Positions 242-62,711 of a stretch of 64,000 nt of DNA are shown in pieces. The notes beneath the pieces are model-generated. The model was not told the DNA's origin. It searched no databases and saw nothing but the letters and a program-made list of their open reading frames with translations. This DNA is from Boothiomyces macroporosus (taxonomy: Eukaryota; Chytridiomycota; Chytridiomycetes; Rhizophydiales; Terramycetaceae): the NCBI GenBank assembly GCA_027604185.1, contig JADGKB010000052.1, forward strand, positions 36,254 through 100,253, written 5' to 3'. Every line of letters begins with the position of its first letter. Within the stretch, counting starts at the first letter, position 1. The position numbers were made by a program, and so were the translations under genes.

Positions 242-1605
242 ATGGCTATTACTAAAATCCTCGCAAGGTATCTTGTAATTTAATCAGACAAATCTTTGAC
301 TCTCGTGGTAACCCAACCGTCGAAGTCGATCTCTGGACCGCCAATGGTTTATTCAGAGCTGCTGTCCCATCTGGTGCAAGTACCGGTATTCATGAAGCAT
401 TGGAACTCCGTGATGGCGGCAAAGATTACCTCGGAAAATGTAATTATCGATTAATCATTAGCTGTATTGAAGGCTGTTGAAAATGTAAATAGCATCATTG
501 CCCCACAATTGATTGCTTCCAAGCTTGATGTAACTGATCAAAAAGCCATTGATGAGTTTATGATTAAGCTTGATGGTACCGAAAACAAGGGCAAATTGGG
601 TGCCAATGCCATCTTGGGTGTCTCCATGGCTGTTGCCAGAGCTGGAGCAGCAAAAAAGAATGTCCCATTGTATCAACACATTGCTGATTTGGCTGGAAAC
701 AAGGATGCTTTCATCCTCCCAGTTCCATGCTTCAACATCATCAACGGTGGATCCCACGCTGGCAACAAATTAGCTATGCAAGAATTCATGATTCTTCCAA
801 CTGGCGCTTCTTCATTTGCTGAAGCAATGAAGATTGGTTCTGAAGTTTACCACCACTTGAAAAAAGTCATCAAGAACAAGTATGGACAAGATGCTACCAA
901 CGTTGGTGATGAAGGTGGCTTCGCTCCAAACATCCAAGACAACAAGGAAGGTCTTGAACTTGTAAAGACTGCCATTGCATCTGCTGGTTACACTGGCAAG
1001 GTAAAGATTGCTATGGATGTTGCTGCTTCTGAATTCTACAAGGACGGCAAGTACGACTTGGACTTTAAGAACCCACAATCAGACAAGTCCAAGCATTTGA
1101 CTGGTGCTCAATTGGCTGATTTATACAGATCCTTTGTTGCCGAATATCCAAGTACTTTTTATTAACATTAGTTGTTTCTATTGAAGATCCATTTGACCAA
1201 GATGACTGGGATTCCTATGCTGCATTGACAAAGTCTGTCCCAATCCAAATTGTTGGTGATGACTTGACTGTTACCAACCCAAAACGTATCCACACTGCTA
1301 TCCAACACAAAGCAGTCAATGGCCTCTTATTAAAAGTCAACCAAATCGGAACTGTTACTGAATCAATTGAAGCTGCTAAATTGTCTCAGGCTGACGGATG
1401 GGGTGTTATGGTTTCCCACCGTTCTGGAGAAACTGAAGATACTTTTATTGCTGACTTGGTTGTTGGTTTAAAGACTGGACAAATCAAGACTGGTGCTCCA
1501 TGCAGATCTGAACGTTTGGCAAAGTACAACCAACTCTTGAGAATTGAACAAGAACTTGGTTCTAAGGCTGTTTATGCTGGTGAAAAGTTCCGTCGCCCAT
1601 TTTAA
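242..1605 (+). CDS. ENO1: Enolase (phosphopyruvate hydratase), 4 exons
   Basis: Glycolytic enzyme that interconverts 2-phosphoglycerate and phosphoenolpyruvate in the cytosol. Exons are 242..267, 288..439, 462..1151 and 1172..1605, giving 433 residues, the usual enolase length. The N-terminus carries the family signature [13 protein letters not shown], then GASTG, the loop [19 protein letters not shown], the SHRSGETED segment and the C-terminal [14 protein letters not shown]. The three introns are 20, 22 and 20 nt and each contains a TTAAT or TTAAC branch-like motif just before AG. The start ATG at 242 follows a TATA-like ctataaatt near 206. The codon for Arg9 and the Ser codon of YLGKS are each split by an intron, and the conserved protein sequence fixes these joins. 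Identity is certain. Confidence 0.97.
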
Positions 1606-1668
1606 TCTTAATTAAATAAATCCGATTATAGCAACCATTTGATATATAGTATTCCGATGATATATCTC

Positions 1669-1925
1669 TTTGTGTAACTGACAGCATATGAATCTAGTAA
1701 CTAAAAGTGTATGAATCTAGCGATTGACAGTGTATGAATCTAGTGACTAAAAGTGTATGTATCTAGCGAGACAGTGTATGAATCTAGTGACTAAAAGTGT
1801 ATGAATCTAGCGAGACAGTGTATGAATCTAGTGACTGACAGTATACAAACAGAGTAACCGACAGTATACAAACAGAGTAACCGGCATTATACAAACAGAG
1901 TAACTGACAGTATGCATGTATATTA
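1669..1925. repeat. 23-bp minisatellite between enolase and GALE
   Basis: About ten imperfect tandem units of 23 bp (some 21) lie between the two convergent genes. The first seven follow gtgtatgaatctagtgact with variants, and the last three follow agtatacaaacagagtaac. The two families share the same period and the same gac/aaa junction, so the second looks like a diverged form of the first. No open reading frame runs through the array. It fills much of the 401-bp gap 1606..2006, where nothing else is visible. Confidence 0.85.
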
Positions 1926-2006
1926 ATACCTAGTAGCTAACTGTAATGAAAAAGTATCTGATAAATTAAATGCAGAAACTTTTACAAGTAATATTTAATC
2001 TCATAT

Positions 2007-3041
2007 TTATTGCTTTTTCATTCCATGAATGTTATTACGATGAAAGTTCCAAGCAGTTTGCACGATAGAATCAATAGTATCATACTGCTTCTTCCATCCC
2101 AACACAGTTTCAGCTTTTTCAGACGACGCAATCAACTTGTCTGGATCACCAGCACGTCTAATTTAGTACAAATTACCTCTCTTTGACAATTGCAGGGATT
2201 GGATGGCCAGTCACTCTTCTAGCGGCTTCAATGATTTCTTTTACAGAGTATCCCTTGCCTGAACCGAGATTGAATCTAGCAGATACATTGTTCTTTACCA
2301 TGTACTCTAACGCTTTGATGTGGGCTGTAGCAAGATCAGTTACGTGTACATAGTCTCTGATACATGTACCGTCAGGAGTGTTGTAGTCATCACCAAAGAT
2401 ATACACCTGTTCTCTTTTACCTAAAGGCACCTGGAGCACAATTGGAATCAAATGAGACTCTGGTTCGTGATCTTCACCCAAGTCTCCTTTTGCGTCTGCA
2501 CCACAAGCATTGAAATAACGGAGACAGACGTAGCGTAATCCAAATGCTTTGTCACACCATTTAAGGATATTTTCCACTACTAGCTTAGTATCACCATAAG
2601 GGTTGATTGGCATTGTCCTGTCATCAGCTTCAATCGGCATCTTTTCAGGCATACCAAACAAAGCGGCGGTAGATGAAAAGATAAAGTACTTTACACCGTG
2701 TTTCTGCATTGCTTGTAATAAAGTGATTGTTCCAGAGACATTGTTTTCAAAATATTTCAAAGGGTCAGCGCAACTTTCACCGACTTCAATAGAAGCGCTG
2801 AAATGAAAGACGGCTTGAGGCTGGTGCTTGCTAAACACACGTTCCAAATCATCCTTGTTTCTAATATCGCCAATCTCCAATGTAACATTAGCAGGAACTG
2901 ATTCAGCGTGTCCTTTTGATAAATTATCCAACACTACGACAGAGTACTTTTCCAACTTTGTTATTTCACGGACTAGATGGCTGCCAATGTAACCCGCTCC
3001 TCCACAGACTAGAACCTAGGTTAATTTGGTTTTACTTTCAT
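2007..3041 (-). CDS. GALE: UDP-glucose 4-epimerase, 3 exons
   Basis: Extended short-chain dehydrogenase that interconverts UDP-glucose and UDP-galactose (Leloir pathway). Exon 1 is only ATG AAA (3041..3036). A 20-nt intron (3035..3016) follows, then exon 2 (3015..2177), a 19-nt intron (2176..2158) and exon 3 (2157..2007). The 331-residue product starts [15 protein letters not shown], with the NAD-binding GxxGxxG motif, and contains SSTAALFG, the catalytic-type NPYGDTK (YxxxK) segment and RYFNACGAD. It lacks the C-terminal mutarotase domain of yeast Gal10, so it is a stand-alone epimerase. The two-codon first exon is notable, and only homology at the N-terminus reveals it. Confidence 0.95.
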
Positions 3042-61546: not shown

Positions 61547-61910
61547 GAATTCAAAGGAGCAAATATAAACAAGAGGGAGGGTAAATATTTACTCGTGATT
61601 TACATCCACTCTATCCGCTTACTCTGAATTGAAGGCTTGCAGTGAAATTCAACCATTTGCCAAAGCCCCAATTTTTTCTGTTCGATTGAAAGCCCATTGA
61701 TTAATTTTGGATTTTTAACGAAGCCTGAATTCAACAGAAAGCGAATAGACATTCAGTAACTGGGATTTAGATGACTGCTTATCCTCTCGCTTGTACGTCC
61801 ACTTCTACCCAATTATTTCCATGTCAACTTTTGTATATTAGCAGAGTCTTTTCCGCCAATCATTTCATTGGCAATTCCATCTCATTCATGCTTGGTTTTT
61901 TAATTTTATA
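61547..61910. other. Divergent promoter region
   Basis: A 364-bp gap between the WSC-SH3 gene and PSMG3. No repeat, RNA gene or clear motif seen. Confidence 0.5.
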
Positions 61911-62240
61911 ATGACAATCGCAAATTTCCCTATAAAAACAAAGACTGTTGTCAGACCAGTAGGAAGCGATAGAATCAATACTCAGTTTGTAGTTACTAAA
62001 TACTCGAATATGACTTTTGTCCTTATTACACAGACTGGGAAAATGGGAAGCTTATTACGAGCAACAAAGAAACCAACAGAGGAATACTTGCTTGGGGACC
62101 GCACAGATCTAGTACCTATGGTTTACTTGACTGAGCTGTTTGACCGCCTTAAAGTCGATGAGCTCTTGCTAGGGTTGTCCCTAAAGCAGGAGCAGGATAT
62201 AAATGAAATAATGGATATCGTGTTGCAGTTGGAAATATAA
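61911..62240 (+). CDS. PSMG3: Proteasome assembly chaperone 3 (PSMG3-like)
   Basis: A 109-residue single-exon protein. The core TFVLITQTGKMGSLLRATKK matches the LVTQFGKMG signature of PSMG3 (PAC3), and TQFVVTKYS before it fits the preceding strand. PAC3 pairs with PAC4 to assemble the alpha ring of the 20S proteasome. Sequence outside the core is divergent, as usual in this family. Confidence 0.8.
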   Translation: MTIANFPIKTKTVVRPVGSDRINTQFVVTKYSNMTFVLITQTGKMGSLLRATKKPTEEYLLGDRTDLVPMVYLTELFDRLKVDELLLGLSLKQEQDINEIMDIVLQLEI

Positions 62241-62254
62241 TTTTGTATTTTTTC

Positions 62255-62711
62255 ATGTTTCTATTGAAAAGGAATTCAGCGATTTTAAAGCCTCACGCAA
62301 GGTTAATTTCTAGAACAGACAGTGAATGGAGAGCGATTCTGACTCCAAAACAGTTCAAAATATTGCGCCAAAGGGGAACAGAGCCACCATTCTCTGGCAA
62401 GTTTAACACTCACAAAGAAAAGGGAGTATACAATTGTGCAGGGTGTGAAACTCCCTTGTACAGATCAACCAGCAAGTTTGATTCAGGGTGTGGATGGCCT
62501 TCTTTTTACGAATCGATTCCTGGTGCGATTAAAAAAAGTGTTGATCTATCACATGGAATGAGCCGGATCGAAATATCGTGTAGTAATTGTGGAGGTACAC
62601 AATATTAATGAAGGTCACTTGGGTCATGTCTTTAAGGGAGAAGGTTTCAAGACGCCGACTGACGAACGACACTGTGTGAATTCAATTTCTCTCTCGTTCA
62701 ATAAAGAATGA
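62255..62711 (+). CDS. MSRB: Peptide-methionine (R)-S-oxide reductase, MsrB, 2 exons
   Basis: A 145-residue enzyme that repairs methionine-R-sulfoxide. Exons are 62255..62594 and 62614..62711, and the intron is 19 nt. The N-terminus [20 protein letters not shown] is a likely mitochondrial presequence. The domain has [20 protein letters not shown], zinc cysteines in NCAGC and [28 protein letters not shown] and the catalytic region [11 protein letters not shown]. The intron splits GG/HLGH. It follows PSMG3 after only 14 bp on the same strand. Confidence 0.95.

Follow-up and report, generated by a model that had tools for sequence, protein, structure and literature searches.

How short can the introns of a fungus be when they form its main intron class? 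The question is raised by a window of 64,000 nucleotides (nt), bases 36254 to 100253 of contig C52 in the Boothiomyces macroporosus assembly (15,203,306 bases in 216 contigs), in which an initial annotation read about 100 introns in a fungus-like genome, more than 90 of them 18 to 24 nt long and most 19 to 21 nt. Protein homologs place the genome in the fungi, in Chytridiomycota and Rhizophydiales: the RSP5 protein of the window is 93% identical to that of Terramyces sp. JEL0728, and its RBM25-like protein matches the public B. macroporosus model HK103_005573 (98% identity in the database search), the two being identical when aligned save for an 11-residue segment that has no counterpart in that model. 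Boothiomyces and Terramyces both belong to the Terramycetaceae (Rhizophydiales, Chytridiomycota). We conclude, with a probability of roughly 0.92, that the main intron class of this rhizophydialean chytrid genome would be nearly uniform U2-type spliceosomal introns of 19 to 22 nt.

Length and boundaries of the introns

The sample analyzed comprises 254 kilobases (kb) from 20 contigs, namely the window and 19 of 20 sampled 10-kb regions. The remaining region, L011, was left out of the length spectrum, flat run, trained pass and later counts because one region there gained hundreds of nats with unrelated dinucleotide pairs; these leaps in coding score when unrelated pairs are skipped perhaps reflect a long, internally repeated gene. 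In an untrained test, a semi-Markov model of coding sequence, fitted to long open frames, skips stretches with set end dinucleotides at a flat cost, blind to intron length, branch motif and context. A flat run permitting introns up to 300 nt merged neighboring genes, and the run reported here spans 12 to 120 nt. The trained gene finder learned its signals from the 121 introns of 18 to 24 nt found in the flat run and charges a prior cost for long introns.

In the window, the trained finder called 119 introns, of which 105 measure 17 to 25 nt, 103 measure 18 to 24 nt and 89 measure 19 to 21 nt, as the initial annotation had described; the span that it gave, positions 242 to 62711, is right as a bounding box. 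The finder's list lacks the first RSP5 intron and two introns treated below (the GT-TG and MsrB introns), and it includes a doubtful 17-nt call. Among the 14 other calls, of 39 to 150 nt, are a 39-nt double intron and, at 18838, a 65-nt false call; the rest are taken to be mainly joins of neighboring genes. Across the sample, the finder called 415 introns in 119 genes, 350 of them at 19 to 22 nt. The dominant class lies below about 25 nt and within a narrow range (361 of 415 calls at 18 to 24 nt), and the gain in coding score of the untrained test peaks at 20 nt over the 254 kb. Short introns are present in each of the 20 sequences (2 to 26 per 10-kb region and 105 in the window). Their density in called coding sequence is 1.8 per kb; scaled up simply to the whole genome, about 21,000 would be expected.

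The boundaries follow the described pattern of GTA donors and AG ends, with GTA opening 92 of the 105 window introns of 17 to 25 nt and GT-AG scoring highest among all 256 pairs of end dinucleotides. The (C/T)TAA(C/T) motif proposed near the 3' end is well above chance, ending 3 to 6 nt before the intron end in 58 of the 105 (mean 6.1 and maximum 13 in 200 shuffles), although the strict motif is present in only 60 of the 105.

Removal of the introns restores the reading frame and conserved sequence, as alignments with homologous proteins bear out. A junction was counted as supported when the protein alignment was gap-free there. For RSP5, all eight junctions are gap-free in five of six fungal homologs and seven in the sixth; for the VWA8-like protein, 15 of 15 are gap-free against Gorgonomyces P0162 and 14 of 15 against Batrachochytrium P0165. 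A query for the VWA8-like gene consisted of the first 1754 of 2797 residues of a fused VWA8-plus-neighbor model that includes a false 65-nt intron. The RBM25-like intervals are gap-free in four of four cases against Terramyces P0122 and in three of four each against P0123 and P0125. Enolase aligns over its full length to PDB 2xsx without a gap at any of three junctions, and the mannose-1-phosphate guanylyltransferase aligns gaplessly to PDB 7d72 across residues 3 to 361, covering its three junctions. In total, homology supports 31 single introns of 19 to 24 nt (30 GT-AG and one GT-TG) and two double introns in these five genes. Two bestrophin-like paralogues with 59% identity, whose alignment of 358 positions has a single gap that lies away from the intron sites, differ by the precise presence or absence of two introns (20 and 22 nt).

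Public gene models of B. macroporosus and of its relative already omit such short segments. In model HK103_005573, 11 residues are missing after position 5191, where the protein of the relative supports a 22-nt intron; the public model seems to treat 55 nt as intron there, a length deduced from the missing residues. One mismatch between the VWA8-like protein and its Terramyces homolog consists of 7 residues inserted at a junction, which would correspond to a 21-nt intron kept in the public model.

In the untrained test, GT-AG stretches of exactly 20 nt raise the coding score by 449 nats, with gains of 234 nats at 21 nt, 164 at 22 nt and 159 at 19 nt. Control pairs reach at most 104 (CT-AC) and 166 nats (TG-GA), so that the gains at 20 and 21 nt exceed every control, whereas those at 19 or 22 nt alone would not. 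Summed over 18 to 24 nt, GT-AG gains 1200 nats and ranks first of the 256 pairs, followed by AT-AA with 866 (median 268). The flat run placed 121 of 380 predicted introns at 18 to 24 nt, with donors like AAG/GTAATT and ends like TTAA-NNN-YAG.

Abutting introns and a GT-TG intron

The initial annotation had described the introns as ending in AG, which holds for most of them, but one ends in TG, and some introns abut as pairs. Two such pairs lie in the RBM25-like gene (Table 1), and both intervals are absent from the public B. macroporosus protein P0121 and from three relatives (P0122, P0123 and P0125). Sample-wide, there are 4, 7 and 12 abutting candidate pairs at score thresholds of 5, 4 and 3, compared with means of 0.10, 0.15 and 0.35, and at most 2, 2 and 3, at control spacings of 1 to 60 nt with AG before the second donor. 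At the threshold of 3, two of the 12 pairs have homology support. The pair at 42620-42658 probably has exon as its second half. In L004 and L021, two further cases were called by the finder as one 40-nt intron each, with AG/GT inside.

Back-to-back pairs would be wholly removed either by two successive reactions via AG/GT or by one reaction across 39 to 43 nt. That the doubles are single introns of 39 to 43 nt, their internal AG/GT being chance or a relic, falls only a little short of even odds: homology shows removal of the whole interval only, and some halves are less than strong (the second half of 4445-4487 lacks a strict YTRAY, and in 4830-4868 the two scores are 8.8 and 3.8). Chance does not readily supply the four abutting pairs with both scores above 5, given that the 60 other spacings average 0.1 such pairs and never have more than 2. 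The AG/GT ratchet sites of insects are zero-length-exon recursive splice sites in which a 3' site abuts a 5' site as in the chytrid pairs, but they divide introns of many kilobases, whereas here two 20-nt units are joined.

The VWA8-like gene contains a 20-nt intron at 18829-18848 (minus strand) with a normal GT donor, a TTAAT branch motif and a 3' end of TG, and this junction is gap-free in four of four homologs. The finder's call of a 65-nt intron at 18838-18902 was rejected, as the Terramyces protein keeps the stretch and four homologs support the 20-nt GT-TG intron. No other acceptor or donor dinucleotide stands out as a class: TG as an acceptor gains 44.6 nats, below AA, TT and TA, and among other donor dinucleotides GC gains the most (63.7 nats versus 50.5 for AT). 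Since TG ends are not enriched as a class, the GT-TG intron is a single case, and it could possibly reflect an assembly base error.

Intron geometry and the splicing machinery

The short introns might be a real subset beside a large class of ordinary 50- to 150-nt introns missed by the finder, given its prior cost on long introns, its 16 calls of 26 to 60 nt and 35 above 60 nt in the sample, and isolated untrained values of 149, 168 and 155 nats at 43, 50 and 62 nt. We consider this improbable. The remaining GT-AG lengths between 8 and 70 nt gain 0 to 120 nats; between 24 and 70 nt the gain never exceeds 168 nats, compared with 449 at 20 nt; the 195 flat-run introns of 40 to 120 nt have donor and acceptor compositions near background; and the longest single intron in the homology-checked genes measures 24 nt. 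There is one strong short class and little sign of a standard class of 50 to 100 nt.

The YTRAY branch motif is found in 262 of 363 introns of the sample. With the branch A taken, by convention, as the second A of YTRAY, it lies at intron position 14 or 15 in 208 of the 262, at 16 or 17 in 39, at 18 in 1 and below 14 in 14, and 5 to 6 nt separate it from the intron end in 224. The untrained set is concordant, with the branch A at 14 or 15 in 67 of 86. Donors are enriched for A at +3 (91%), A at +4 (59%) and T at +6 (55%). The +5 G of the donor, which pairs with U1 and U6, is common in U2-type introns and not strictly required; here it is not enriched, at 16% of the 363 introns (not above the genome base frequency) and 19% of 133 untrained introns. 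The short introns are AT-rich (30% GC), and in-frame stops occur in 74 of the 103 whose length is a multiple of three (72%, compared with 65% over all frames), an effect that is weak at best. As shown by these motifs, the introns are defined by a GTA donor, a YTRAY with its presumed branch A mostly at position 14 or 15, and a YAG 5 to 6 nt later, at near-fixed spacing. The initial concern that such introns leave little room for U1, U2 and U2AF at once is strengthened: in introns with a visible branch motif, the branch A is mostly 14 to 15 nt from the 5' splice site, with 3 to 4 nt left before the final AG.

Genes for small nuclear RNAs (snRNAs) were found for U6 (C59), U1 (C34) and U2 (C80 and C178). 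U1 starts AUACUUACCUG, U6 has ACAGAGA and U2 has the canonical GUAGUA segment, and all three RNAs are canonical in their pairing segments. Between the two U2 genes (L025 and L026), the second (C178) has more broken stem pairs than the first. The encoded SMU1 aligns along almost its entire length with SMU1 from solved structures (E value, 5e-135), and U2AF65 is a clear match to solved structures (E value, 1e-61). SF1-HH and LUC7 matches are also present; the SF1 locus, modeled on one strand only, yielded no SF1 model. The inspection of splicing genes that the initial annotation had proposed is thereby answered in part, with U1 and U2 canonical where they pair and with SF1-HH and U2AF65 encoded. 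The gene models of SMU1, U2AF65 and LUC7 carry 19- to 21-nt introns of their own, and three longer calls in the machinery gene models, of 131, 88 and 56 nt, are taken as gene joins. SMU1 matters because human Smu1 and RED become essential when the distance between the 5' splice site and the branch is short, the minimum in human extracts being about 50 nt according to passages of that study (PMC6692369). SMU1 is also kept by the short-intron ciliate Paramecium bursaria, as a part of PMC12862383 describes.

GT-AG ends, a fixed-place branch motif complementary to U2, frame restoration, genes for U1, U2 and U6, and presence or absence between paralogues all support, at the level of sequence, the initial annotation of these introns as spliceosomal. 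Segments cut from DNA, as are the internal eliminated sequences of ciliate macronuclei, or assembly insertions or frame errors would also be short, AT-rich (30% GC) and frame-interrupting, but such an origin is very improbable given GT-AG ends (best of 256 pairs) with a fixed-place branch motif, the canonical snRNAs encoded, public gene models of B. macroporosus and a relative that omit the segments from protein, and TA-TA lying outside the 12 best of 256 boundary pairs.

Several results weigh against a near-uniform class of U2-type introns. The trained finder learned from the same genome that it scores, and 35 of its 415 calls exceed 60 nt, those in the window being taken as mostly false joins. 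The untrained gains at 19 and 22 nt (159 and 164 nats) are no higher than the best control (166) or GT-AG at 50 nt (168). VWA8-like junctions are gap-free in only 10 of 14 covered against Globomyces P0161 and 8 of 11 covered against Terramyces P0160. YTRAY is absent from 101 of 363 introns, and the +5 G is present in 8 of 31 introns of the homology set, above the 16% of the whole set. Regarding the machinery, the U1 match scores 68.8 bits with a cut-off of 69.5, and the genome-wide U2AF match (230.7) is below the family cut-off of 310.3, with weak matches also in two bacteria. Neither U5 nor RED (searched with RED_N) was found in the genome, in searches whose controls gave no match either, and a zf-U1 match was rejected as U1C, being SF3A3-like by eye.

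If the short introns are U2-type, their geometry would fit a spliceosome that assembles sequentially and not simultaneously. The donor would be read by U1 and the branch site by SF1 and then U2; since the branch site and donor are too close for both full particles, contact with U1 would be brief or would give way to U6 pairing once U2 and the tri-snRNP (small nuclear ribonucleoprotein) engage. The presence of SMU1 would fit a role in relieving the short distance between 5' splice site and branch. Although U2AF65 is retained, the interval from branch to AG is too short to contain a polypyrimidine tract, and selection of the 3' site therefore probably depends more on its distance of about 5 nt from the branch than on U2AF. 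A fuller account, which we regard as possible more than probable, is a molecular ruler (branch A 14 to 15 nt from the 5' site and 5 to 6 nt from the end) acting on a canonical spliceosome that could not hold U1 and U2 together. U1 would be displaced or bypassed before U2, loss of the +5 G and a TG end would be tolerated, and abutting pairs would be removed one by one, a miniature form of recursive splicing.

Genes of the window and known short-intron systems

Table 1. Genes of the window with their introns, given as positions in the window (intron lengths in nt in parentheses)
Feature	Position	Strand	Introns	Basis or remark
Enolase	242..1605	+	268-287 (20), 440-461 (22), 1152-1171 (20)	Gene finder
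UDP-glucose 4-epimerase-like	2007..3041	-	3016-3035 (20), 2158-2176 (19)	Gene finder; name by eye
RBM25-like, RRM and PWI	4324..5811	+	Double 4445-4487 (22+21) and 4830-4868 (20+19); single 5191-5212 (22), 5562-5580 (19)	
Double intron (22+21)	4445..4487	+		GT...AG directly then GT...AG, no exon between; unit scores 6.4 and 8.0
Double intron (20+19)	4830..4868	+		AG/GT abutment; unit scores 8.8 and 3.8, second half weak
Mannose-1-phosphate guanylyltransferase	6205..7353	+	6337-6357, 6488-6508, 6811-6831 (21 each)	Gene finder
Short-chain dehydrogenase-like	9378..10306	+	9469-9488 (20), 9525-9543 (19), 9827-9845 (19), 9980-10000 (21), 10094-10112 (19)	Gene finder; name and gene end by eye (finder model ran on into RSP5)
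RSP5/NEDD4-type HECT ligase	10529..12943	+	10554-10575 (22), 10858-10878 (21), 11195-11215 (21), 11687-11707 (21), 12230-12249 (20), 12388-12407 (20), 12529-12548 (20), 12824-12843 (20)	
Presumed SEC8-like, neighbor of VWA8	13001..16395	-	16 calls of 19-21 nt within 13163-16110	Gene finder; start codon by eye
VWA8-like	16450..22089	-	15 introns of 19-24 nt: 21842-21862, 21610-21633, 20865-20884, 19825-19846, 18829-18848 (GT-TG), 18433-18453, 18136-18156, 17970-17989, 17584-17602, 17514-17536, 17430-17450, 17162-17181, 16957-16976, 16772-16791, 16620-16639	
Ubiquitin hydrolase (UCH)	25401..27244	-	27150-27169 (20), 26761-26780 (20), 26313-26334 (22), 26238-26258 (21)	Gene finder
ArfGAP-like	27754..29004	+	27780-27800 (21), 28719-28739 (21)	Gene finder; name by eye; 5' end outside model
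Methyltransferase-like	29059..30170	-	29866-29885 (20), 29322-29341 (20)	Gene finder; name by eye
Unnamed product	30459..32016	+	31051-31070 (20), 31628-31647 (20)	Gene finder
Unnamed product	32031..33335	-	32500-32519 (20), 32219-32237 (19)	Gene finder
Protein kinase	37397..39298	+	37538-37559 (22); 17-nt call at 38175 doubtful	Gene finder; name by eye
Cytochrome b5 and acyl-CoA dehydrogenase fusion	39466..41105	+	39576-39596 (21), 39782-39801 (20), 40584-40604 (21), 40761-40781 (21)	Gene finder; ends by eye
EF-hand protein	42454..43130	+	42510-42530 (21), 42620-42639 (20), 42806-42825 (20), 42903-42922 (20), 43019-43040 (22)	Gene finder
Bestrophin-like paralogue 1	43278..44375	+	None	Gene finder; name by eye
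Bestrophin-like paralogue 2	44554..45690	+	44901-44920 (20), 45466-45487 (22)	
Very large gene, PI3K-like kinase	45788..54692	-	Ten introns of 19-22 nt starting 45970, 46145, 46271, 46455, 46682, 49935, 50684, 51980, 53076, 53201; one exon of 3234 nt	Gene finder; name by eye
Unnamed product	54944..56127	-	56087-56108 (22), 55391-55408 (18), 55002-55020 (19)	Gene finder
MsrB-like	62255..62711	+	62595-62613 (19)	Read from sequence, outside gene-finder list; name by eye

The first RSP5 intron was also tried at 18 nt, which was rejected; the alignment to the relative gives 22 nt, with the first AG skipped. The dehydrogenase-like and RSP5 genes are neighbors in the window, and in Kappamyces the Pfam accessions of both occur in one public model (P0010), so that the order of the pair may be conserved and the Kappamyces model is probably a false fusion. 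The gene beside VWA8, which we take to be an exocyst SEC8-like gene from the Pfam accessions of P0160, was called fused with VWA8 by the trained finder. Its introns at 15436 and 15460, 4 nt apart, are doubtful, and its junctions were left out of the homology-supported count because the alignment to P0160 has 110 gap positions in 931. Removal of the 19-nt intron of the MsrB-like gene restores CGGHLGHVF, presumably the MsrB motif.

Outside these genes, a tandem array of units of about 23/44 nt occupies 1674-1913, just downstream of enolase. The otherwise gene-dense window has an AT-rich stretch of about 3.2 kb with no called genes at 22100-25400. Two adjoining FAD-monooxygenase-like genes (named by eye) at 57700-60619 are apparently a local duplication, and 60660-61474 (minus strand) encodes one protein with a WSC-like domain (below the cut-off), an SH3 domain and, by eye, a transmembrane-like stretch.

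The initial annotation was right to name nucleomorphs and some ciliates as precedents, to which mikrocytids should be added (PMC10245619). Introns of the heterotrich ciliate Stentor coeruleus measure 15 to 16 nt, with the branch A at position 10 or 11 and a 5-nt tail; according to the portions of PMC9505925 used here, they resemble the chytrid introns in being GT-AG, AT-rich and nearly uniform in length, with a tail of about 5 nt after the branch A. The chytrid branch A is not at the Stentor position (mostly at 14 or 15, in 208 of 262), so that the two lineages agree in the distance from branch to intron end but not in that from donor to branch. Stentor is also a ciliate and not a fungus, with introns in 18% of genes compared with about 1.8 per kb of coding sequence in the chytrid (PMC9505925). 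Chlorarachniophyte nucleomorphs have nearly the same length range (18 to 21 nt) and numerous introns, more than 800 in about 300 genes as excerpted from PMC10245619, but in a relic endosymbiont nucleus, compared with the 15.2-Mb nuclear genome of the chytrid. The same excerpts give 16 to 17 nt for mikrocytids, with 224 introns in M. mackini; the narrow range and conserved motifs are alike, but mikrocytids are reduced parasites with a reduced spliceosome, whereas the chytrid has SMU1, U2AF65, SF1-HH and LUC7 matches (PMC10245619). In Paramecium and Nyctotherus, a short class dominates as in the chytrid, but these are ciliates and their introns are longer, at about 25 nt in the part of PMC5014332 consulted; an extreme of 23 nt is given for Trichomonas in a passage of PMC12316389.

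Fungal introns usually measure around 50 to 100 nt, with the branch near the 3' end. Those of Cryptococcus neoformans, with a mean of 63 nt in the portion of PMC8476143 examined, represent ordinary fungal introns that are U2-type and GT-AG as in the chytrid but about three times longer. The examined text of the same survey, which covers 644 fungal genomes with two chytrids in its reconstruction, mentions no class near 20 nt (PMC8476143). Among the matches listed in the open-licence literature, we found no report of introns near 20 nt in a fungus, and an earlier mention is possible. As judged from the sequence, the short-intron class is real and dominant across the sampled contigs, surprising for a fungus and of a kind known from unrelated lineages; the new details are the abutting AG/GT introns, two of them homology-supported, and one 20-nt GT-TG intron.

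Fungi are a leading experimental kingdom for splicing. With a fungus that keeps many introns at 14 to 15 nt from donor to branch and has canonical snRNAs, it would become possible to test in a tool-rich kingdom how small an intron the spliceosome can physically handle. Gene finders that require longer introns may break or fuse genes in such genomes, as the 11 residues missing from HK103_005573 exemplify. With nucleomorphs, heterotrichs and mikrocytids, this chytrid joins a small group of organisms that splice at the lowest scale known.

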